Source of the DNA: Nitrospinae bacterium RIFCSPLOWO2_12_FULL_45_22
GTDB lineage: Bacteria; 2-12-FULL-45-22
Direction of reading: 5' to 3'
DNA: 8,497 bases
Assembly: GCA_001803565.1 (NCBI GenBank)
Contig: MHDQ01000228.1
Span: forward strand, 1 to 8,497
Position 1 is the first letter of the stretch; every line of letters starts with the position of its first letter. The notes beneath the pieces were generated by a model. The model saw only the letters and a list, made by a program, of their open reading frames with translations, was not told where the DNA came from and searched no databases. The translations under genes were made by a program, and so were the position numbers. This document shows, in pieces, positions 1 to 8,497 of this stretch.

Positions 1-57
1 ATCGGCCAGGTATGCAATGAATTAAATATCAGACTTGTGGGGTGTCAGTTAGGTTGT

Positions 58-85
58 TTCTAATACCTGCCAGGGGCGTGGTTCA
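58..85. repeat. 28-bp direct repeat, left copy (radical SAM gene 3' end)
   Basis: Bases 58-85 match 3567-3594 exactly, in the same orientation. The similarity continues on the left with 2 mismatches in a further 7 bases (51-57 against 3560-3566). Read on the minus strand in the phase of the radical SAM gene, this copy encodes EPRPWQVLETT and then a stop, against EPRPWQVLEANLES and a stop at the intact gene. It therefore looks like a second, slightly different 3' end of that gene. The right edge of the match (85/86) is where an antitoxin relic is cut. I infer a boundary of the accessory segment, either an att-like site or a duplication scar. Confidence 0.75.
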
Positions 86-196
86 CTTCCCGGACTGGAA
101 CTCAAAGCTGGACAGAAGATTCTCGACCAGCTCGGCACGCTCCACCGGTGGCAGTTCCAACGCCTCAGCAAGAATGCGCTCTCCATGTTTTTACAT
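83..196 (-). pseudogene. Broken short antitoxin of the addiction-module (TIGR02574-like) type
   Basis: The minus strand from 190 to 83 reads KHGERILAEALELPPVERAE and continues LVENLLSSFEFQSGK before a stop. This matches my memory of the N-terminal half of the roughly 70-residue addiction-module component family that usually pairs with a RelE/ParE toxin. It is broken at both ends. The only nearby ATG (194-196) is followed at once by TAA (191-193); one extra A in the A run just after it would explain the lost frame. The C-terminal half is missing because the coding sequence runs into the 28-bp repeat, whose first bases (TGA) supply the stop. An AGGAGG-like ribosome site lies upstream at about 205-213. 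No partner toxin is visible. The family call rests on remembered similarity. Confidence 0.6.
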
Positions 197-237
197 ATGT
201 CACCACCCCTCCTTTATGTTGATGATCCGATTGTATT

Positions 238-392
238 TTAGCACACTCTGGAGGCGTTTTCTAATTCTTCCTTTCCTCGACTGATTTACCTTGAAAGGTA
301 ATTACATCGCGTAGATTAATGACCTCGCCGTGAAAGATGCCTGCCTCATCACCAAACTCGACTTTTGCAATGTATCCTTTATATCCCATCAT
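238..392 (-). pseudogene. hicB: Truncated, frameshifted HicB-type antitoxin
   Basis: The ATG at 390-392 opens a frame reading MMGYKGYIAKVEFGDEAGIF and then HGEVINLRDVITFQGKSVEE, which is the characteristic HicB N-terminal partial RNase H-like fold. After SVEE the frame slips to RKN and a stop at 261-263. In another phase the expected ELENA follows (about 256-270), ending at TAA (238-240). About 45 residues of a usual 100-plus remain, and the C-terminal DNA-binding part is gone. The start overlaps the hicA stop as ATGA (389-392), the usual translational coupling of this operon. HicB normally neutralises HicA and represses the operon; this relic could at most retain the toxin-binding part. Confidence 0.75.
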
Positions 393-636
393 GGCGTTAC
401 CCCTACTTCTTGCAAAAATCTGCGAACCGATTTTACTGTGCCTTTATCAGCTTCCTTTTGTGGATGCGGTCGATGAAACACAGCCCTGACACCCTGCAAA
501 GCAACTCGAACCCTTGAGCCTCAGAAATTTCTGCGCCCACTGCTTTGAACAATGCTTCAATATCTTTCCAGGCAATGTTGGTCCGCATTGGTTCTTCAAA
601 GATCGCTTCCAAGATTTTTCTGTGTTTCTTTTTCAC
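389..636 (-). pseudogene. hicA: Frameshifted HicA-type toxin
   Basis: From a GTG start at 634-636 the frame reads MKKKHRKILEAIFEEPMRTN and then IAWKDIEALFKAVGAEISEA, typical of the HicA mRNA interferase group that precedes hicB. Around 502-507 the phase slips. The open frame continues as unrelated residues to a stop at 433, while the neighbouring phase reads VALQGVRAVFHRPHP, then QKEADKGTVKSVRRFLQEVG and VTP, ending with TGA at 389-391. Restoring one base (for example GAGTTG to GAGGTTG) rebuilds an 83-codon gene of normal length whose stop overlaps the hicB start. The His-containing FHRPHP segment, expected to be needed for activity, lies after the break, so the toxin is probably dead unless the shift is a sequencing error. 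No strong ribosome site is seen. Confidence 0.8.
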
Positions 637-706
637 AGAGCAATAGTGCTACATTATGATACCATTTTCAAGAAATTTTACTGAAAACCGGGTCTTTTGC
701 ACATTT

Positions 707-777
707 GCCACCTAACGGTGGCGCTCAGCGGGCGGCGCGGCTTTTTGCGACAGTCCACTGGAGCGACTGGTTATGGC
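707..777 (-). other. attC-like integron recombination site (cassette end A)
   Basis: Read on the minus strand, the site runs from a CCATAAC box (770-776) to a GTTAGGT box (710-716); the latter fits the attC R' consensus GTTRRRY. Inside, CGCTCCAGTGG (755-765) pairs with CCGCTGAGCG (722-731), with one G-T pair and one extra base in the 5' arm, as expected of the extrahelical base of attC. The unpaired spacers are 4 and 5 bases. The TAA stop of the nucleotidyltransferase (771-773) lies inside the left box, which is common for cassette genes. The bases GCCACCTAACGGTGGC (707-722) can also form their own small hairpin. A covariance-model search was not possible here. Confidence 0.65.
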
Positions 778-1220
778 AGATGCTGTAAATCTTCTAAGTC
801 TTTGTGTCTACCACACGCTCTTTTGTTTGCCTTAAGATCATCTAAGGCAATAAAGTTCACCGGAATGCCGTCGATCTCTATTATTTCTCGACGTGTATAG
901 CATTGGTGGAAATCTATGCCAGAGGCTGTCGTTATCACTTCGATCCGGACTGGAGGAACGCCCATCCGGATGACCCTACCCTTTTCAGTGAAAAGGTCCT
1001 TCGTCACCTCTCGTTCCAACATCCCGAAATCGCGAAGTGTTTTTGCCGTCTTCTCGGCGTTCGCCTCACTCACGGCAATCCAAATGTCCAGGTCCCCTGT
1101 TGCGCGCGGGTAACCATGGTAGCCGACCGCATAACCGTCTACAACAAGGTACTCAACATCGTGAGAGTTCAGCAGTCTCAAGAAGTCTCTGAAGTCTGGA
1201 TGTAGTTCGATATGAGCCAT
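771..1220 (-). CDS. Small nucleotidyltransferase-fold protein
   Basis: This 149-residue protein belongs, from memory, to a common family of stand-alone nucleotidyltransferases of the AbiEii/DUF6036 type. Features are the N-terminal LHPDFRDFLRLLNSHDVEYL, the helix-strand segment VVDGYAVGYHG (26-36), the metal-binding pair in TGDLDIWI (Asp43, Asp45), a third acidic position in VRIEV (Glu94) and the C-terminal KRACGRHKDLEDLQHLP. These proteins would transfer a nucleotide to an unknown target. The first Gly of the hG[GS] motif is replaced by Asp28 (usually VGGYAV), which may impair activity. The ATG start (1218-1220) lies 68 bases inside the preceding small gene. It ends within an attC-like site, so I read it as part of a gene cassette. 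No toxin-antitoxin partner of known type is evident. Confidence 0.85.
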   Translation of the reverse strand: MAHIELHPDFRDFLRLLNSHDVEYLVVDGYAVGYHGYPRATGDLDIWIAVSEANAEKTAKTLRDFGMLEREVTKDLFTEKGRVIRMGVPPVRIEVITTASGIDFHQCYTRREIIEIDGIPVNFIALDDLKANKRACGRHKDLEDLQHLP

Positions 1221-1362
1221 ACACCATCCGTCGATTAAACTCGATAGCGTTCAAGCGTTCAACCGCGCTTCGGGATAACCAGTACCGTTTCTCTTCCGTG
1301 ATGTCATCAAAGGAGGAGACCGTAAGCCGTGACTTATCGAGACGAGGCATCTTACCGTCCAT
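1153..1362 (-). CDS. Small conserved-type protein preceding the nucleotidyltransferase
   Basis: This 69-residue basic protein starts at ATG 1360-1362, with AGGAG (1371-1375) eight bases upstream. The middle, EEKRYWLSRSAVERLNAIEF followed by NRRMVYGSYRTTSRLQRLLE, resembles the short proteins often found just upstream of this nucleotidyltransferase type; their function is not known to me. It may be a partner or antitoxin-like subunit, but that is inference from pairing only. The stop lies 68 bases inside the downstream gene, so two phases are read from the same DNA between 1153 and 1220. No signal peptide, membrane segment or recognisable DNA-binding fold is seen. Confidence 0.65.
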   Translation of the reverse strand: MDGKMPRLDKSRLTVSSFDDITEEKRYWLSRSAVERLNAIEFNRRMVYGSYRTTSRLQRLLETAELSRC

Positions 1363-1388
1363 ATCTCATTCTCCTGATGATCTTATTG

Positions 1389-1476
1389 CCATAACGTAGA
1401 AATCAGGCGCGGGCCAAAAAGCTAGCCCGAAAGGCCGCCGCGCTTATTCACGTCGCCGGAATTGATTGGTTATCCC
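1389..1476 (-). other. attC-like integron recombination site (cassette end B)
   Basis: On the minus strand a GGGATAAC box (1469-1476) begins two bases after the TGA of the 177-residue gene, and a GTTATGG box (1389-1395) closes the site. AATTCCGGCG (1454-1463) pairs with the complement of AATCAGGCG (1401-1409), with one extra base in the 5' arm, one G-T pair and one mismatch. The spacers next to the boxes are five bases on each side. The centre holds a GC-rich stem-loop (GCGCGG at 1407-1412 against CCGCGC at about 1437-1443). Its size, about 88 bp, is within the attC range. The inner pairing is weaker than at sites A and C. Confidence 0.5.
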
Positions 1477-1477
1477 T

Positions 1478-2011
1478 TCAATTTGTTTCAACGATGTAAT
1501 CACTTTTTTTCTCGTTCCAAGTCATCTTCATTGATGATGGATAATCATTTGCAACCAGCTCAAATATATTGATTATCTCTTTGATGGGGATTCGGTAAAT
1601 GGTTTTATCTCGTTCAAAATCTGAGCAAGCATATACTCCTCCCCAATTTCTATCTTTTTCTCGATAAGCAAAAATTGTACAGCTATGAATAAGTTGATTA
1701 GCCAAAAAGACGATGTTCTTGGTTACGTTTTTTTCTTCTGTTAAATCATATACTTCGTCTATATCCCACTGATTAAATTTGGTGATTCTTTTGCCAGTAG
1801 GAGTGTAACAAAATACTGAAGCCCTATATTCTTGTGATTTTCTTGATACCTTATGAGTCTCAAGGAGTTTCCGAATACAAAAGAACGAAACAATCAACTC
1901 TTTTTCAAAATTGACTACTATCCTTTCACTCCAACGCTTAGGTTTCTTTACAGGTCTTAAGCGTTTTGCATGAATCAATAGATCTTCTTTCCAGTAGCAA
2001 GATTCAATCAT
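1478..2011 (-). CDS. Hypothetical protein, probable gene-cassette ORF
   Basis: I do not recognise this 177-residue protein. It begins MIESCYWKEDLLIHAKRLRP, is rich in Lys, Glu, Ile and Tyr, and has no signal peptide, no long hydrophobic segment and no Cys-rich motif. Segments such as WDIDEVYDL (82-90), LANQLIHSCTIFAYRE (103-118) and CSDFERDKTIYRIPI (129-143) suggest a compact soluble alpha/beta protein. The gene is clearly more AT-rich than the division genes to the right, consistent with recent arrival. It fills the space between two attC-like sites, with the ATG (2009-2011) only 8 bases past the upstream GTTATCC box and the TGA two bases before the downstream box. No ribosome site or promoter of its own is visible, which is usual for integron cassette genes. 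Confidence 0.8.
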   Translation of the reverse strand: MIESCYWKEDLLIHAKRLRPVKKPKRWSERIVVNFEKELIVSFFCIRKLLETHKVSRKSQEYRASVFCYTPTGKRITKFNQWDIDEVYDLTEEKNVTKNIVFLANQLIHSCTIFAYREKDRNWGGVYACSDFERDKTIYRIPIKEIINIFELVANDYPSSMKMTWNEKKSDYIVETN

Positions 2012-2019
2012 TTATTTTG

Positions 2020-2077
2020 GGATAACGCCGGCCTTCAGCGGCGCTTTCTAGCGTCTGCTGCAAGGCGTTGTTATCTG
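2020..2077 (-). other. attC-like integron recombination site (cassette end C)
   Basis: This is the clearest of the sites. On the minus strand GATAAC (2070-2075) and GTTATC (2021-2026) are perfect complements. Inside, GCCTTGCAGC (2057-2066) pairs with GCTGAAGGC (2031-2039) perfectly except for one extra base in the 5' arm (position 2061), matching the extrahelical base of attC. The unpaired spacers are 3 and 4 bases. The centre (2040-2056) forms a small CGCT/AGCG hairpin. It lies 4 bases after the vapC stop and 8 bases before the start of the next gene, as between two cassettes. Confidence 0.7.
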
Positions 2078-2081
2078 ACTG

Positions 2082-2444
2082 TTACTTATTGAAGCCCAGA
2101 CCCAGTTTTGAAGAAACTTCATCCAGTTTTTTGTCAAGAGTCCATATTGGAACTCCTGTTAATACTGCCGACGCAATCAGGTGGACATCAATATAGCCTA
2201 ATCCCTTCCCCATAAGTTTATTACTCTCTATAAATTGCATAATTTCTTCATGTTCTGCCTGGGTCGCCATGGGAAGTGCTTGAAGAAGTGAAAGTATTTC
2301 AGATCTATTATCGAGATTCCCACAAGCCAGTTCACCAACTATAAATGGATGACAAATAACATCTCCATCATTTAATAATCTCTCAAGCTTTGTATTGCCC
2401 TCCCGCAGATGGGATACCCATACCGAAGTATCAACAATAACCAT
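2082..2444 (-). CDS. vapC: VapC-type PIN-domain ribonuclease toxin
   Basis: This 120-residue PIN-domain toxin is a metal-dependent RNase that inhibits translation when free of its antitoxin. The four acidic PIN residues are visible: Asp5 in VIVDTSVW, Glu38 in VGELACG, Asp86 in GYIDVHLIASA and Asp104 in TLDKKL. Length and the N- and C-terminal parts are normal, so the toxin should be active. It starts with ATG (2442-2444) one base after the vapB stop, so translation is coupled. The gene order antitoxin then toxin is the usual vapBC arrangement. The known cellular targets of VapC (initiator tRNA and others) differ between family members and cannot be read from the sequence. The stop is followed within 4 bases by an attC-like site, suggesting it is the last gene of a mobile cassette. 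Confidence 0.93.
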   Translation of the reverse strand: MVIVDTSVWVSHLREGNTKLERLLNDGDVICHPFIVGELACGNLDNRSEILSLLQALPMATQAEHEEIMQFIESNKLMGKGLGYIDVHLIASAVLTGVPIWTLDKKLDEVSSKLGLGFNK

Positions 2445-2445
2445 T

Positions 2446-2643
2446 TTATCGGCTTTCTGTTCTTCTGCGAGGTATCATTCTCAATTTCTTTTCGGTTCCC
2501 CCTAATCTGGCAAGTCTCTTACTGCTTTCCCTCGCAATCAAGGCTTCCAGGCCACGCTTGACTAAAGTCGTCTTTTCCTTAATGCCAGTCAATTTTGACG
2601 CCTTATCAATCAATTTGTCCTCTATATTTAATGTTGTCCTCAT
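2446..2643 (-). CDS. vapB: VapB-type antitoxin
   Basis: This 65-residue protein begins MRTTLNIEDKLIDKASKLTG, the short beta strand and helix of the VapB (ribbon-helix-helix-like, pfam09957-type) antitoxin family that binds DNA as a dimer and represses its own operon. The basic C-terminal tail is the part expected to wrap around VapC. The start is ATG at 2641-2643 with GAGGTG (2651-2656) seven bases upstream. It is followed directly by vapC. A promoter and three ACATAY repeats upstream (2661-2710) fit autoregulation by the VapBC complex. Confidence 0.88.
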   Translation of the reverse strand: MRTTLNIEDKLIDKASKLTGIKEKTTLVKRGLEALIARESSKRLARLGGTEKKLRMIPRRRTESR

Positions 2644-2660
2644 CGTTTTTCACCTCAATT

Positions 2661-2710
2661 ATATGTAATATTGTATGTATAAGTATGTTTTAATAAAGCA
2701 TATTTGTCAA
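2661..2710 (-). promoter_or_regulatory. vapBC promoter with repeated operator-like hexamers
   Basis: On the minus strand TTGACA (2705-2710) is a consensus -35 box, and CATACT (2682-2687) lies 17 bases downstream as a 4/6 match to the -10 box. From the -10 towards vapB, three hexamers occur in direct orientation: ACATAC (2683-2688), ACATAC (2673-2678) and ACATAT (2661-2666), with starts 10 and 12 bases apart. They are roughly one helical turn apart, so they could be an operator bound on one DNA face by VapB or VapBC. The -35 box lies 19 bases past the higA stop, so vapBC is an independent unit. Confidence 0.6.
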
Positions 2711-2728
2711 GTAACATCTGGGTTCATT

Positions 2729-3034
2729 CTAAACAGCAGCGGCATAAACGTGTACTTCTTTGTTCAGCCTGTCGTCTAATTTGTCTTTTTCAGTTTCAAG
2801 GTTATACCGTGCTTGTAAATTTATCCAGAATCGTTCTGAAAGACCAAAATAACGTGATAACCTCAGGGCAGTGTTAGGAGTAATAGAACGTTTGCCTTGT
2901 ACGATTTCGTTGATACGTCTTGCCGGTACACTAATATCCTTAGCTAATTTATACTGGCTAATCTCCATAGGTTTCAGAAACTCTTCCATGAGGATTTCAC
3001 CCGGATGAATTGGCTGTAGTTTTTGTTTGGTCAT
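2729..3034 (-). CDS. higA: HigA-type antitoxin with HTH domain
   Basis: This 101-residue protein is an antitoxin of the HigA/VapI group, which binds and silences HigB and represses the operon. Visible marks are the N-terminal HPGEILMEEFLKPM (10-23), the Xre-type helix-turn-helix around 26-50 (SQYKLAKDISVPARRINEIV followed by QGKRS) and the FWINLQARYNLE segment (69-80) typical of the group. Length is normal. The ATG (3032-3034) is preceded by AGGAGGAG (3038-3045), which overlaps the higB stop, so translation of the two genes is probably coupled. The toxin-first order is the hallmark of higBA. The 8-bp inverted repeat in the operon promoter (3344-3369) is the likely binding site. Confidence 0.93.
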   Translation of the reverse strand: MTKQKLQPIHPGEILMEEFLKPMEISQYKLAKDISVPARRINEIVQGKRSITPNTALRLSRYFGLSERFWINLQARYNLETEKDKLDDRLNKEVHVYAAAV

Positions 3035-3043
3035 ATGCTCCTC

Positions 3044-3325
3044 CTAATGATAGTCAACTATTTCTACGTTGTAAGCATCCCCATCACGCCATTCAAAACA
3101 TATGCGCCACTGTTTGTTGATGCGAATGCTATACTGTCCTTTTCTATCACCCGATAGCTTTTTAAGGTGATTAGATGGTGGTATACGTAAATCTTGAAGC
3201 ACCTCCGTTGCATCCAAAATCTCAAGTTTCCGTCGAGCAATTTGTTGGATACTCTGTTGGAACTTCCGAGATATTTCGCGATTAAATAGCTTTTCAGTTT
3301 CCGTGCTCGCAAAACTTTTTATCAT
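3044..3325 (-). CDS. higB: HigB-type (RelE-fold) mRNA interferase toxin
   Basis: This 93-residue toxin of the RelE superfamily (killer-protein, Rts1 HigB type) cuts mRNA on the ribosome. Diagnostic parts are MIKSFASTETEKLF at the start, SNHLKKLSGDRKGQYSIRIN (51-70), KQWRICFEWRDGDAYNVEI and the terminal DYH (91-93); the basic residues Arg61, Lys62, Arg68 and Arg74 line the expected active-site face. I chose the ATG at 3323-3325 rather than the in-frame TTG three bases upstream, because family members begin MIKSF and because the predicted transcript starts at or next to that ATG. No ribosome site precedes it. It is followed by higA after 9 bases. Confidence 0.92.
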   Translation of the reverse strand: MIKSFASTETEKLFNREISRKFQQSIQQIARRKLEILDATEVLQDLRIPPSNHLKKLSGDRKGQYSIRINKQWRICFEWRDGDAYNVEIVDYH

Positions 3326-3333
3326 CAAAAGTA

Positions 3334-3369
3334 ATAATATCGCATGCCGTTAATAATGTCAAACGGCAT
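3334..3369 (-). promoter_or_regulatory. higBA promoter overlapped by an inverted-repeat operator
   Basis: On the minus strand TTGACA (3357-3362), a 17-base spacer and TATTAT (3334-3339) form a near-consensus sigma-70 promoter. A perfect inverted repeat, ATGCCGTT (3362-3369) and AACGGCAT (3344-3351) with a 10-base centre, brackets the -35 box and overlaps the spacer. Binding there by HigA, alone or with HigB, would block RNA polymerase. The -10 box ends only 8 bases before the A of the higB ATG, so the transcript would be leaderless or nearly so. Confidence 0.75.
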
Positions 3370-3374
3370 CAGAC

Positions 3375-3453
3375 ACATAACGTATGCGTCACTGATGAGT
3401 GCCACCGAACAATAATCAAATGCCTAAAACCATAATGGCGATAACGGTTATGA
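3375..3453. other. Possible attC-like site upstream of higBA
   Basis: CATAAC (3376-3381) and GTTATG (3447-3452) are perfect complements about 77 bp apart. Inside, CGTCACTGATG (3386-3396) can pair with CATAATGGCG (3431-3440), with two G-T pairs and one extra base. The layout resembles attC, but the extra base lies in the plus-strand 5' arm, the opposite of the other three sites, and the inner pairing is weak. If real in minus orientation, it would mark the upstream border of a cassette holding higBA and vapBC. Confidence 0.35.
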
Positions 3454-3548: not shown

Positions 3549-5198
3549 TTAGCTCTCTAAGTTTGCTTCTAATACCTGCCAGGGGCGTGGTTCATGCTCA
3601 TCCCGTTGGCGGTACACGTAATATTCAGGATTGATATTGGTTTCTTTGATGGCCTGGGGCCAGTTCCCCTCGAGACGGTGAGCAGCATATAGAAGATTCC
3701 CTACTAAACGGTCACCCCGGGCTAATAGGGCCTGGATAAAAGACCATTTGGGTAGGTCATGGATGACAGAGACATTGTCCATCTTCACTAAATCTTGTTT
3801 TATATATTTGATCTTGGCCTTGAGAGACCCTATAGTATCCATACCTACCAATTGAAAAGGGGTAAGGGGTTTAGGGACAAAAGGTGTGAGACTCAGGGTG
3901 ATATTGCCAGCAAACTTACGGGTCTTAAAGGTCTTCTGGCCGATATGTTTGATCTTCCTGGCCAGTTGCCCTATAGCGGCAATATCCTCCTGGGTTTCCG
4001 TAGGCAAGCCGATAAGGAAATAGAGCTTAAGATGAGTAATACCGGCATTAAAGGCCAGGGCTATACCTTCTAATATCTCTTCGTCCGAGATATCTTTATT
4101 GATAACCTTCCTAAGCCTCTCTGTGCCGGCTTCTGGTGCCAGGGCAATGGTCTTTTGGCCACCGGAGGCCAAAAGGGTCAGGAGTGGAGCCGATATTTTA
4201 TCAATCCGCAGAGAAGGGGCTGATATCTCTCCCCCCAGGGATATAATCTCCTGGCAGAGACTTAATAAGTCCGGGAAGCTGGTCAGGTCTGGGCTGATGA
4301 GACCTATCCTTTTAGTATACTGTAATCCCTTTTTTACCTGGCTTAGGATAGTTTCTGCCGCATAGAACCGGACGGGCTTATAAAGGGAGCCGCTCAGACA
4401 GAACCGGCATTTCCTGGTGCACCCCCGCCCTATTTCTACTAGAAAGATATCAGAAAATTCTGTATTAGGGGTAATGATCTGGCTGGAGGTAGGGGATTGG
4501 TCTACATTCTTCAGCCATTGCCTCTCTACTCGGCCTGGCATAGCGGGTGACGGTTCCGATCCACAAAAAAGGTTTCCCTCTTTATACTTTACCGAGTAGC
4601 CGGCCGGGTAATAGACCCCGGGTAAGCAAGCCAGATTATGGGTTAGGGCTCTCCTGTCTATGCCCCACCCTCCTGCGTTCCCTCGCAGACAGTTTAATAC
4701 CTCTGGCATTAATGCTTCCCCTTCACCGATAAGGAAAAGGTCTATAAAATCTGCCAGGGGCTCAGGATTAGTCATGGCGCAAATACCGCCGGCGATAACC
4801 AGGGGATGCGAGTTATCTCTTTGGTGGCTGAAGAGGGGTATCTGGGTCAATTCCAGAATCTTTAATACCTGGAGATAATCGAGCTCAAAGGATAAAGAAA
4901 AGGCCAGGATATGAAACTCTTTCAGGGGAGTTTGGGATTCGAGGGAGAATAAAGGGATATGCTGCTGTTCATAGAGAGGAATGTCTCCTGGGTCAGGCAA
5001 AAAGCCCCGCTCACACAGGATATCATTATCCTGATTCAAGAGGCTATAGACCTTTTGAAATCCTAGATTGGACATCCCAATATAGTAAGTATTGGGATAG
5101 ATCAGGGCGATAGAAAGCTTCCCGCCAAAGGATTTCTTTATGCTCCCTTTTTCCTGGGCGAGGATTTCCCTCGCCTTTTTATAGAGTTTCCAGGACAT
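3549..5198 (-). CDS. B12-binding-type radical SAM protein (TIGR03960-like)
   Basis: This 549-residue protein has two parts. Residues 1-240 resemble the degenerate cobalamin-binding N-terminal domain (YPNTYYIGMSNLGFQKVY at 34-51, SLSFELDYLQVLKI at 101-114, VIAGGICAMTNPEPLADF at 134-151, LFLIGEGE at 154-161). Residues 250-480 form the radical SAM core, with the CxxxCxxC cluster motif in GRGCTRKCRFC (Cys260, Cys264, Cys267), APEAGTERLRKVI (354-366) and LYFLIGLPTET (392-402). It should bind a 4Fe-4S cluster and S-adenosylmethionine in the cytoplasm; the substrate is unknown. The ATG lies 10 bases after the ftsZ stop, so the gene is probably in the same operon. As I recall, relatives continue past the PW motif with a Cys-containing tail, whereas this one stops shortly after RPWQVLE, so the end may be shortened or exchanged. 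Its last codons form the 28-bp repeat. Confidence 0.88.
   Translation of the reverse strand: MSWKLYKKAREILAQEKGSIKKSFGGKLSIALIYPNTYYIGMSNLGFQKVYSLLNQDNDILCERGFLPDPGDIPLYEQQHIPLFSLESQTPLKEFHILAFSLSFELDYLQVLKILELTQIPLFSHQRDNSHPLVIAGGICAMTNPEPLADFIDLFLIGEGEALMPEVLNCLRGNAGGWGIDRRALTHNLACLPGVYYPAGYSVKYKEGNLFCGSEPSPAMPGRVERQWLKNVDQSPTSSQIITPNTEFSDIFLVEIGRGCTRKCRFCLSGSLYKPVRFYAAETILSQVKKGLQYTKRIGLISPDLTSFPDLLSLCQEIISLGGEISAPSLRIDKISAPLLTLLASGGQKTIALAPEAGTERLRKVINKDISDEEILEGIALAFNAGITHLKLYFLIGLPTETQEDIAAIGQLARKIKHIGQKTFKTRKFAGNITLSLTPFVPKPLTPFQLVGMDTIGSLKAKIKYIKQDLVKMDNVSVIHDLPKWSFIQALLARGDRLVGNLLYAAHRLEGNWPQAIKETNINPEYYVYRQRDEHEPRPWQVLEANLES
3567..3594. repeat. 28-bp direct repeat, right copy (inside radical SAM gene 3' end)
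   Basis: This copy is identical to 58-85 and encodes, on the minus strand, the residues around EPRPWQVLE near the radical SAM C-terminus. The gene then ends with its own codons (ANLES and stop at 3549), which differ from those following the left copy. The two copies enclose about 3.5 kb holding all the toxin-antitoxin and cassette genes. No integrase or transposase is present between them. Confidence 0.75.
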
Positions 5199-5208
5199 AA
5201 GCCCATCA

Positions 5209-6348
5209 TCAGTCCGCCTTTCGCCTCAAGAATGCCGGCACATCCAGGTTCTTTTCTTCCAAACCGGGCTGCTGATAGCGGGGAGGGGCGGTTGGTGCAC
5301 CTTTGCGGACATTACTGTCTACTCTAATATCGGTATCCCCTCTGGCCGGCATTGGCCGTAATTTTAGCCGGGGCTCTTCCGCGGCTTTTTTGCCACTGCC
5401 AAACCCTGTGGCAATGACCGTTACCCTTACCTCTTCTCCCATACTCTCATCTATTACCGAACCAAAGATTATATGGGCCTCTTCATGGGCGGTTTCATAG
5501 ATCAAGGAGGTGGCCTCATTTATCTCGTATAGGGTAAGGTCTGCCCCGCCACTAATATTTATCAGCACGCCGGTAGCACCTTCGATGGAGGACTCTTCCA
5601 GGAGTGGGCTGGCTACGGCTTTTTGGGCGGCCTCTATTGCTCGGTTCTCACCCCGGGATGAACCAGTGCCCATAAGGGCCATGCCGGTTTCAGACATAAT
5701 AGTCTTTACATCGGCAAAGTCTACATTTATCAAACCAGGCACGATGATGATATCAGAAATACCTTTGACGGCTTGCTTCAGGACATCATCGGCCAGCTTG
5801 AAGGCATCCCGGAAACTGGTCTTTCTCTCTACTATATTCAAGAGTCTCTGGTTAGGGATGGTAATGAGGGTATCTACCCGCTCCTTTAGTTCTTTCCATC
5901 CTATTTCGGCTTGGATAGCTCTCCTCTTCCCTTCAAAGACAAAAGGCTTGGTTACTACCCCAACGGTCAGTGCCCCTTTTTGCTTAGCTACTTCTGCTAT
6001 TATCGGAGCCCCGCCGGTACCGGTCCCCCCACCTAGCCCGGCAGTAATAAAGACCATATCCGCGCCTTCCAAGAGCTCACTAAACTTGTCTGCATCTTCC
6101 AGGACAGCCCTGCGGCCAATGTCTGGGTCGGCGCCAGCCCCTAACCCTTTAGTGAGCGTGGCCCCAATCTGGATCTTTATGGGGGCCAGGGAATTGCTTA
6201 GGGCCTGGGCATCGGTATTGGCCGCTATGAATTCTACTCCTTCTAGACCAGCAGAAATCATAGTATTGATGGCATTACCACCACCACCGCCGATCCCTAT
6301 AACTTTGATTTTAGCCAGATGATTATCTTCTGCAAATTGTAACACCAC
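5209..6348 (-). CDS. ftsZ: Cell division protein FtsZ
   Basis: This 379-residue tubulin-like GTPase polymerises into the Z ring at midcell. Key parts are the nucleotide-binding [13 protein letters not shown] (18-30), the tubulin signature [12 protein letters not shown] (104-115), the T7 synergy loop NVDFADV (208-214, with Asp210 and Asp213 acting on GTP of the next subunit), a variable linker from about 322 to 366, and the C-terminal peptide LDVPAFLRR (368-376), which binds FtsA. All are intact and length is normal. Two GTG codons lie together (6346-6348 and 6343-6345); I keep the first, behind a purine-rich ribosome site (6355-6364). The gene follows ftsA after an 87-bp spacer containing heptad repeats and precedes the radical SAM gene by 10 bases. 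Confidence 0.98.
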
Positions 6349-6368
6349 CCTTTTCCCCTCCCTTAATG

Positions 6369-6430
6369 ATTAGGTCATTGGTTACTGGTTATTGGTCATT
6401 GGTAAACACTAATGACCAGTGGCTAATGAT
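6369..6430. repeat. Heptad tandem repeat forming a hairpin, ftsA-ftsZ spacer
   Basis: Four 7-bp units lie in tandem: TCATTGG (6375-6381), TTACTGG (6382-6388), TTATTGG (6389-6395) and TCATTGG (6396-6402). ATTGGTCATTGGT (6391-6403) then faces ACTAATGACCAGT (6408-6420) across a 4-base loop; the two differences are transitions, so the RNA stem could keep G-U pairs on one strand. The pattern is shared with the ftsQ-ftsA spacer. No T run follows on the minus strand, so it is not a clear terminator. Confidence 0.75.
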
Positions 6431-6435
6431 TTTTC

Positions 6436-7668
6436 TTAAAAGAAGTCTGTTAACCATTCTTTCATTTTTAGCACGGTCTTATGGAAAAAGTTATGCCCAT
6501 TGTCCTTGCTCCCCTTGACAGAGAAAAAGTCTTTTGACCCATAAAGTACCAGCCCTACTGCCGTGGCATAGATCGGGCTCCTGACTATATCTGCTAGCCC
6601 TTTGATACCGATGGGTATGCCCCGGTGGACGGGCAGTTCAAATATCTCTTCCGCTAACTCTGTCATCCCTTCCATAATGGTGCTTCCCCCGGTAATCACT
6701 ATGCCGGAAGCCAATAAATCCTTACAGCCACTCCTTATTAGCTCCTGGTCTACCAGGCGATAAATTTCCTCTACCCGGGGTTCTATTATCTCGCTCAGTA
6801 CTTTACGGGAAAGCATCCTGCTATCCCGGCCTCCTACACTAGGGACTTGTATCTCTCCGTCTTCTCTGACCAGTGCAGAATAGGCAACCCCATAGTCCCT
6901 CTTTAATTTCTCCGCCTCCAGGGGAGGTGTCCTTAACCCAATAGCAATATCGTTAGTGATATGACTCCCCCCTACATCCAGGACCGCCGTATGTCTTATG
7001 CTCCCTTGCCTAAATACCGCTATATCAGTGGTCCCACCACCAATATCTACCAGGGCTACCCCTAACTCTTTCTCATCCGGAGTTAAGGTAGCTTCTCCCG
7101 ATGCCAGGGGTTCCAAAACTATCGTCTTAACTTCTAGCCCAGCTAGATTTACACACTTAACGATATTCGTAGCGGCACTCGAGGCACCGGTAACAATATG
7201 CACCGCCCCTTCTAACCTAATACCTGATAATCCTAAAGGCTCTCTGATGCCATCTTGACCATCTATAGTAAACTCTTGCGGCAAGACATGGAGCACCCTC
7301 CGGTCCATAGGTACGGCCACGGCCTTAGCAGCATCAATAACCCTATCTATATCCACCCGGCTTACCTCTTTGCTCTTTACTGCTACAATACCCTGGCTGT
7401 TTATGCCTTTGATATGAGCCCCGGCAATGCCAGCATATACTGAATCAATCTCTATCCCAGCCATCAATTCTGCTTCTTTAACGGCATTCCGAATGGACTC
7501 TACTGTACTTTCAATATTGACCACCATCCCTTTCCTTAATCCCTTTGAGGGATATTTGCCAATACCAATTATTTCCATCTGGCCATCAACGCCGCGATCG
7601 GCTATGATAGCGCAAATCTTAGTGGTGCCGATGTCCAAACCAACAATTGTATTTTCCTTCCTGGCCAT
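6436..7668 (-). CDS. ftsA: Cell division protein FtsA
   Basis: This 410-residue actin-like ATPase tethers FtsZ to the inner membrane and recruits later division proteins. Visible elements are the phosphate-1 loop GLDIGTTKICAII (10-22), the family-specific 1C domain (about 85-165), phosphate-2 VDIGGGTTDIAV (207-218) and the adenosine motif VITGGSTIMEG (324-334). The C-terminal stretch FHKTVLKMKEWLTDFF (395-410) is the amphipathic membrane-targeting helix. Length is normal. The ATG (7666-7668) is fixed by a full anti-SD match AGGAGGTGA (7676-7684) seven bases upstream, stronger than the site before ftsZ. It lies 93 bp after ftsQ and 87 bp before ftsZ; both spacers contain heptad repeats. Confidence 0.98.
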   Translation of the reverse strand: MARKENTIVGLDIGTTKICAIIADRGVDGQMEIIGIGKYPSKGLRKGMVVNIESTVESIRNAVKEAELMAGIEIDSVYAGIAGAHIKGINSQGIVAVKSKEVSRVDIDRVIDAAKAVAVPMDRRVLHVLPQEFTIDGQDGIREPLGLSGIRLEGAVHIVTGASSAATNIVKCVNLAGLEVKTIVLEPLASGEATLTPDEKELGVALVDIGGGTTDIAVFRQGSIRHTAVLDVGGSHITNDIAIGLRTPPLEAEKLKRDYGVAYSALVREDGEIQVPSVGGRDSRMLSRKVLSEIIEPRVEEIYRLVDQELIRSGCKDLLASGIVITGGSTIMEGMTELAEEIFELPVHRGIPIGIKGLADIVRSPIYATAVGLVLYGSKDFFSVKGSKDNGHNFFHKTVLKMKEWLTDFF

Positions 7669-7698
7669 TTTTTCCTCACCTCCTCTCCCGGGTTTAAA

Positions 7699-7762
7699 TT
7701 AGTCATTAGTCACTGGTCATTTGTTTTTTTTACCAATTACCAATGACTAATGACCAATGACC
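7699..7762. repeat. Heptad tandem repeats in inverted arms, ftsQ-ftsA spacer
   Basis: The left arm holds TTAGTCA, TTAGTCA and CTGGTCA in tandem (7699-7719). The right arm holds the inverted family ACCAATT, ACCAATG, ACTAATG and ACCAATG (7732-7759). A T-rich loop (7722-7730) separates them, so the whole can fold into an imperfect stem of roughly 25 bp. The same 7-bp consensus occurs in the ftsA-ftsZ spacer. The last bases overlap the ftsQ stop codon. It resembles the short tandemly repeated heptamers described in cyanobacteria, though I do not claim descent. Confidence 0.75.
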
Positions 7763-8497
7763 TAAATATGAGGTTTTACGATTACCAAATCCCTAAAAGA
7801 AAGGTCTATATAAGCTATCCCTTTTCCTTCCCGCTCTATGAAGGGTGAGATAGCGTGAAGATAAGATAGATTTTGTTTTAGCTGGCTAAAGGACAATCTA
7901 ATTTCTGTGTGTATGGCCTTTAGAAATACTACTGGCCGCTCTATCTGAGATAGATCCAATCTAGCAATCCCCCTGGTAGCTATCCAGGGCGAGGCATTGA
8001 GGGCGATTAATAACTCTGCCCCTTTCTTGAGCCTGGCTTTTGTCCCTTCCTGTTCCCCTACGCCAGTTATTAAGGGCAATTGAAGCCCTCCAGTGCCTTT
8101 GAGAGGGGTAAGGATCTGGCCATCCTGGGCAACCAACATTCTCGTCCTAGAGACCGAGTTCTGTGCCGGTTTGTAGGGATGGGACTCTGTGCCCATCCTT
8201 GGGCGGCCAGAGACGACCGCCCCTACTGGCTCTCTCTCTACTATAGAAACAGTTAGCCTGTCAGGCAATACCCGTCTTATAACACCATCTCTTACCCAGG
8301 GATGGAGCACGAGCCTCTGATTCAAGCCCTTTACATCCAGGCTAAAGATGTTTACGCTGGCATTTAACCCTAAAAACTTTTGCACGGCCTCTTTATCCAG
8401 GTATTTGTTGCCCTCAATTTCTATCTGGGTAAGGTTGAAATAAGGAGAGGAGGTTAGATAATGGTAAAGGTAGTTGATACTTGCCCCTAAGCAACCA
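7762..8497 (-). CDS. ftsQ: Cell division protein FtsQ (5' end beyond window)
   Basis: The frame is open to the window edge, giving 244 residues of the C-terminal part. FtsQ (DivIB) is a bitopic inner-membrane protein that links early and late division proteins through its periplasmic domain. The readable start, LGASINYLYHYLTSSPYFNL, would be the end of the membrane segment and the entry to the POTRA domain (TQIEIEGNKYLDKEAVQKFL and on to LPDRLTVSIVEREP). The beta domain follows (MLVAQDGQILTPL, LPLITGV, then IHTEIRLSF). The 18 residues VGAVVSGRPRMGTESHPY, directly after EREP, are encoded exactly by a palindromic element and are absent from the FtsQ pattern I know. The true start lies outside the window; the GTG at 8383-8385 is internal. 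Confidence 0.92.
   Translation of the reverse strand, partial: GCLGASINYLYHYLTSSPYFNLTQIEIEGNKYLDKEAVQKFLGLNASVNIFSLDVKGLNQRLVLHPWVRDGVIRRVLPDRLTVSIVEREPVGAVVSGRPRMGTESHPYKPAQNSVSRTRMLVAQDGQILTPLKGTGGLQLPLITGVGEQEGTKARLKKGAELLIALNASPWIATRGIARLDLSQIERPVVFLKAIHTEIRLSFSQLKQNLSYLHAISPFIEREGKGIAYIDLSFRDLVIVKPHI
8173..8226. repeat. 54-bp two-hairpin palindromic element inserted in frame in ftsQ
   Basis: On the plus strand the element opens with GTAGGG (8173-8178) and closes with CCCTAC (8221-8226), which are complementary. Between them lie two hairpins: GGATGGG/CCCATCC (8177-8183 with 8192-8198) and GGGCGG/CCGCCC (8201-8206 with 8217-8222). Together these can form a cruciform-like three-way fold. 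Its borders fall exactly on ftsQ codon borders, giving 18 codons without a stop. It looks like a REP/MITE-type repeat captured as coding sequence. Confidence 0.7.

Follow-up and report, generated by a model that had tools for sequence, protein, structure and literature searches.

Three gaps between minus-strand genes beside ftsZ resemble the attC recombination sites of integrons, which raises the question of whether the genes between them form a run of captured cassettes and, if so, where the integrase is. The window analyzed here is an entire contig (C228; 8,497 nt) from a 3.67-Mb genome in 321 contigs that is 85% complete. A cassette consists of one gene, or a pair of genes, with an attC site behind it. 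The bottom strand of an attC site folds into a hairpin that the integron integrase (IntI) cuts between G and TT (G/TT), which allows cassettes to enter or leave as circles. With the crossover at G/TT in the R' box, an integrated cassette starts with the rest of its own R' and ends with its own R''. The start of a cassette must complement its own R'', and the R'' and R' within one in-array site stem from different cassettes.

All three gaps (sites A, B and C) show the attC consensus of RYYYAAC...GTTRRRY boxes and inner arms with an extrahelical base, departing from it at some outer R/Y positions and by one arm mismatch in B (Table 1). The inner arms are CGCTC(C)AGTGG / CCGCT-GAGCG in A, AAT(T)CCGGCG / CGCCTGATT in B (1 mismatch) and CCTT(G)CAGC / GCTG-AAGG in C. 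As the original prediction had it, the sites lie close behind gene stops: 5 bases from the VapC stop (2082) for C, 2 bases from the stop of a 177-aa ORF (1478) for B, and with the stop of a nucleotidyltransferase (NTase)-like gene inside the R'' box for A. Such positions would also suit ordinary terminators between genes, or palindromic repeats that merely resemble attC, and folding points partly in that direction. By DNA folding alone, only site C exceeded shuffles in stability, and by a wide margin (z -4.1); A (z -0.8) and B (z -0.5) were no more stable than shuffles.

Table 1 Features of the window. Positions refer to the 8,497-nt contig.
Feature	Position	Strand	Description
Inverse core ACCTAAC predicted for cassette 4	48..54	-	Exact match to prediction from GTTAGGT
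35-nt direct repeat, left copy	51..85		33/35 to 3560-3594
Decayed cassette 4	86..715	-	HicA, truncated HicB, addiction-module antitoxin fragment (frames read)
attC site A	710..776	-	R'' CCATAAC 776-770, R' GTTAGGT 716-710
Cassette 3 (679 bp) with site A	716..1394	-	Both ends at G/TT junctions, 4/4
NTase-like 149-aa ORF	771..1220	-	Cassette 3
69-aa ORF	1153..1362	-	Cassette 3
attC site B	1389..1475	-	R'' GGATAAC, R' GTTATGG
Cassette 2 (631 bp) with site B	1395..2025	-	Both ends at G/TT junctions, 4/4
177-aa ORF	1478..2011	-	Cassette 2
attC site C	2020..2076	-	R'' AGATAAC, R' GTTATCC
Cassette 1 (1355 bp) with site C	2026..3380	-	HigB, HigA, VapB, VapC (family matches)
VapC	2082..2444	-	Cassette 1
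VapB	2446..2643	-	Cassette 1
HigA	2729..3034	-	Cassette 1
HigB	3044..3328	-	Cassette 1
ftsQ, ftsA, ftsZ, TIGR03960-like B12/radical SAM (rSAM) gene	3549..8385	-	Pfam and NCBIfam; no integrase
35-nt direct repeat, right copy	3560..3594		Inside rSAM gene 3' end

We searched for attC with a structural scan of our own (threshold 23), run on the integrase-bearing contigs and the window. It detected canonical attC arrays on the integrase contigs, and in the window it picked up A (score 23.8) and C. Shuffling the window 1000 times with dinucleotides preserved gave 0.038 hits per window, and two hits on one strand in none of the shuffles. Two covariance models were built from attC sites taken from other contigs of this genome: R1 from 11 sites, and R2 from 37 sites, none of them from the window. 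Because MAFFT alignment of the full-length sites put the arms out of register, R1 was built on sites cut down to 27+27 bases, and R2 on a realignment made with the model. R1 matched A (31.4 bits) and C (29.9 bits) in the window and missed B. R2 gave exactly three matches there, all on the minus strand and at the three positions originally proposed: A at 40.3 bits (E 1.8e-8), B at 26.6 bits (E 4.3e-5) and C at 34.1 bits (E 6.2e-7), with the next best at E 0.6. Across other genomes, R2 had no hits in 30 of 41. Two distant genomes in the list of relatives are also attC-rich by R2 (G002 with 27 hits and G032 with 10). Rfam had nothing at the three attC positions, and its microRNA matches in the window fell below the gathering score and were dismissed as chance. 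Inner-arm pairing is partly built into these models, since the training sites were first picked by an attC-shaped scan. The inner-arm pairs of the 37 R2 sites also carry many two-sided changes, which alone are not independent evidence because the sites were chosen by pairing.

Complementarity between a cassette start and its own R'' opposes this bias, as the scan rewarded pairing within a site. We compared the 4 variable bases in 33 consecutive site pairs genome-wide. Start and own R'' agreed at 4/4 in 20 of the 33 cassettes, as against 1 of 33 for R'' and R' within a site. Shuffling the start/R'' pairing gave an average of 1.65, and 20 was reached in 0 of 10,000 shuffles. In the window, the two cassettes with both ends defined (631 and 679 bp) begin at G/TTRRRY and match at 4/4: the R'' of site A complements its own cassette start GTTATGG, and that of site B its own start GTTATCC. 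The start of cassette 1 is complementary to the R'' of site C at 3/4 bases. The same rule, applied to integrase-bearing contig C243, predicted the start GTTAGTG. The only copy of this motif, at 2408, falls between intI and the first cassette, the place where attI has to lie, and is a predicted attI crossover; on C304, a second such contig, the rule found no first-cassette start.

This complementarity across neighboring sites refutes terminators or palindromic repeats in practice. Both covariance models also match specifically, and homologous attC sites accompany different genes elsewhere in the genome (79% identity over 81 nt between B and an attC at C140 7771-7860; 76% between C and an attC at C261 1575-1638). 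We therefore regard a terminator origin as extremely improbable. The three gaps are genuine integron attC sites, and the box and arm layout, the covariance matches and the start-to-R'' complementarity all uphold the prediction of three minus-strand sites.

The cassettes they delimit are 1355, 631 and 679 bp long, close to the sizes first estimated, and the captured genes in the row are mostly toxin-antitoxin modules. A HigBA pair also forms a bounded cassette on C243, an integron of the same genome. When this pair is aligned with the window HigBA, similarity starts at CGTTATG, where the C243 cassette begins, and nothing upstream is clearly homologous. Because the homology stops there, we place the array start at G/TTATGT (3381/3380), where it meets a stretch of approximately 170 non-cassette bases next to rSAM. 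VapBC comes after HigBA with no attC between them, so cassette 1 may be two cassettes fused through loss of the HigBA attC. The 177-aa ORF has distant homologues on a few plasmids and none in 59 other genomes; a Pfam match to Minor_capsid_1 was below its cut-off and was dismissed. Homologues of the NTase occur in 22 of 60 genomes, and the name nucleotidyltransferase is a reading of the sequence, as there is no Pfam match.

Beyond site A lies a decayed fourth cassette. Its HicA is frameshifted (about 390-636) and matches HicA_toxin (PF07927) at 1.9e-12 when the two frames are joined, and its antitoxin fragment matches Unstab_antitox (PF09720) at 5.8e-4, below the cut-off of that family. The ACCTAAC predicted for this cassette is found just before the contig end, with a chance of approximately 0.04 in that stretch, and is possibly the start of a fourth attC that is truncated there. 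The remaining bases at this end had no covariance match as attC (R2).

No intI was detected on C228 with TIGR02249, and a search between rSAM and HigBA found no attC or attI-like structure. The closest matches of rSAM (57%) and FtsZ (66%) come from the sole order-level relative in the comparison set, so the contig belongs to this lineage; in the FtsZ tree, the window groups with that relative (97/96). A repeat rich in AATGACC/GGTCATT flanks ftsA as inverted copies (6370-6429 and 7703-7765), and a similar copy is present at C115:284-342.

Elsewhere in the genome, two full intI scored above the TIGR02249 curated cut-off (467 bits on C243, 439 bits on C304), and TIGR02249 also matched intI fragments on many other contigs; control genomes match it only below the cut-off. 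The IntI of C304 matches the Vibrio IntI structure 2A3V at 2.5e-85. Two intI copies (C136:20148-20653 and C317:8631-9136) lack the same internal segment (profile positions ~125-268) and show 83% identity over 596 nt; they represent a duplicated or jointly decayed integrase. Four contigs (C287, C95, C106 and C7) carry the C-terminal part of intI only, which suggests that this one genome contains several integrons that have decayed or are broken up between contigs. R2 detected at least 74 attC sites (E up to 0.1) on 36 contigs, a lower bound because only part of the candidates were scored. The statement that no integrase is in view thus holds for C228 but not for the genome, where both intI and further attC were found. 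With two full intI, the intI fragments and attC on about 36 contigs, the ftsZ site is one of many and not special within this genome, which refines the initial suggestion that such a setting would be unusual.

The window has at least two attC sites within 4 kb (spacing 631-679 bp) and no intI nearby. A complete integron would have intI and an adjacent attI upstream of the array, where we find rSAM-ftsZ-ftsA-ftsQ. With no integrase on the contig and the rSAM-ftsZ operon on the attI side, the locus is almost certainly a true integron cassette run without its own integrase (CALIN, a cluster of attC lacking an integrase). The contig breaks at position 1, inside the possible fourth attC, and attC arrays cause assembly breaks (PMC9024848), which would fit the far part of a complete integron with intI just past the contig end. 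However, the canonical layout places attI and intI upstream of the first cassette, which here is the operon side without an integrase, and the array would have to be inverted or rearranged. We consider such a simple assembly cut improbable.

According to published work (PMC8618304), a CALIN can form when an IntI encoded elsewhere inserts cassettes off target, when intI is lost, or through rearrangement. The first cassette junction abuts non-attC DNA beside rSAM directly, and this clean junction favors off-target insertion or intI loss. The array may have reached rSAM-ftsZ by off-target IntI insertion at a non-attI site, or may be an intI-less integron remnant, and the IntI of the genome would act on it in trans. 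As proposed for Vibrio superintegrons, the toxin-antitoxin modules would probably resist loss of the block.

The 3.5-kb cassette block lies between the two copies of a 35-nt direct repeat that occurs nowhere else in the genome. One copy is the 3' end of rSAM, suggesting a further insertion or rearrangement. The rSAM protein ends at the repeat (3549-3590), earlier than two homologues (L107 and L108), and the insertion may have changed its C-terminus. The flanking repeats, and an antitoxin gene that is cut at the left copy, would fit arrival of the block as one unit (an integrative element or captured fragment) with the cassettes as passengers. Yet the block contains no recombinase, no empty site is known (the sole kin contig, from the order-level relative, ends inside rSAM), and the left repeat sits at the edge of the contig and may be an assembly artefact. 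We regard one-unit arrival as possible though rather unlikely; it concerns origin and is compatible with true cassettes. A more specific version, a discrete mobile cassette island that inserts in the rSAM 3' end downstream of ftsZ, rebuilds that end and leaves the 35-nt repeat, is highly doubtful.

Compared with the CALIN class of IntegronFinder, which is likewise defined by at least two attC within 4 kb in one orientation with no intI nearby, the window differs in nothing essential, apart from adjoining the rSAM-ftsZ operon and having the 35-nt flanking repeat. CALINs are common in genomes and MAGs (PMC9024848, PMC9668308), and in RefSeq they are about as common as complete integrons (2961 vs 2760; PMC9024848). 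Cassettes that encode toxin-antitoxin modules are typical (PMC8618304, PMC11023631), and 107 attC on >18 contigs have been reported from one MAG (PMC9668308). The window array is therefore correctly identified but ordinary in kind. Like the Vibrio superintegron, a sedentary chromosomal integron, it carries toxin-antitoxin modules in the form of separately bounded cassettes (PMC11023631), but here the attC sites are diverse (54-128 nt), scattered over about 36 contigs and not seen as one array. IntI can insert cassettes in trans at attG or other non-attI sites, according to Loot et al. 2024 as cited in PMC11023631. The first window cassette similarly starts at G/TT joined to non-attC DNA, and this junction is at most a candidate attG.

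A CALIN first spotted from raw sequence alone is now confirmed in an undescribed bacterial lineage. Complementarity between a cassette start and its own attC makes cassettes testable even where no integrase lies close by and no published model is used. With its two full intI, many intI fragments and approximately 74 attC on 36 contigs, this genome is a useful case for studying the dispersal of cassettes from an integron.
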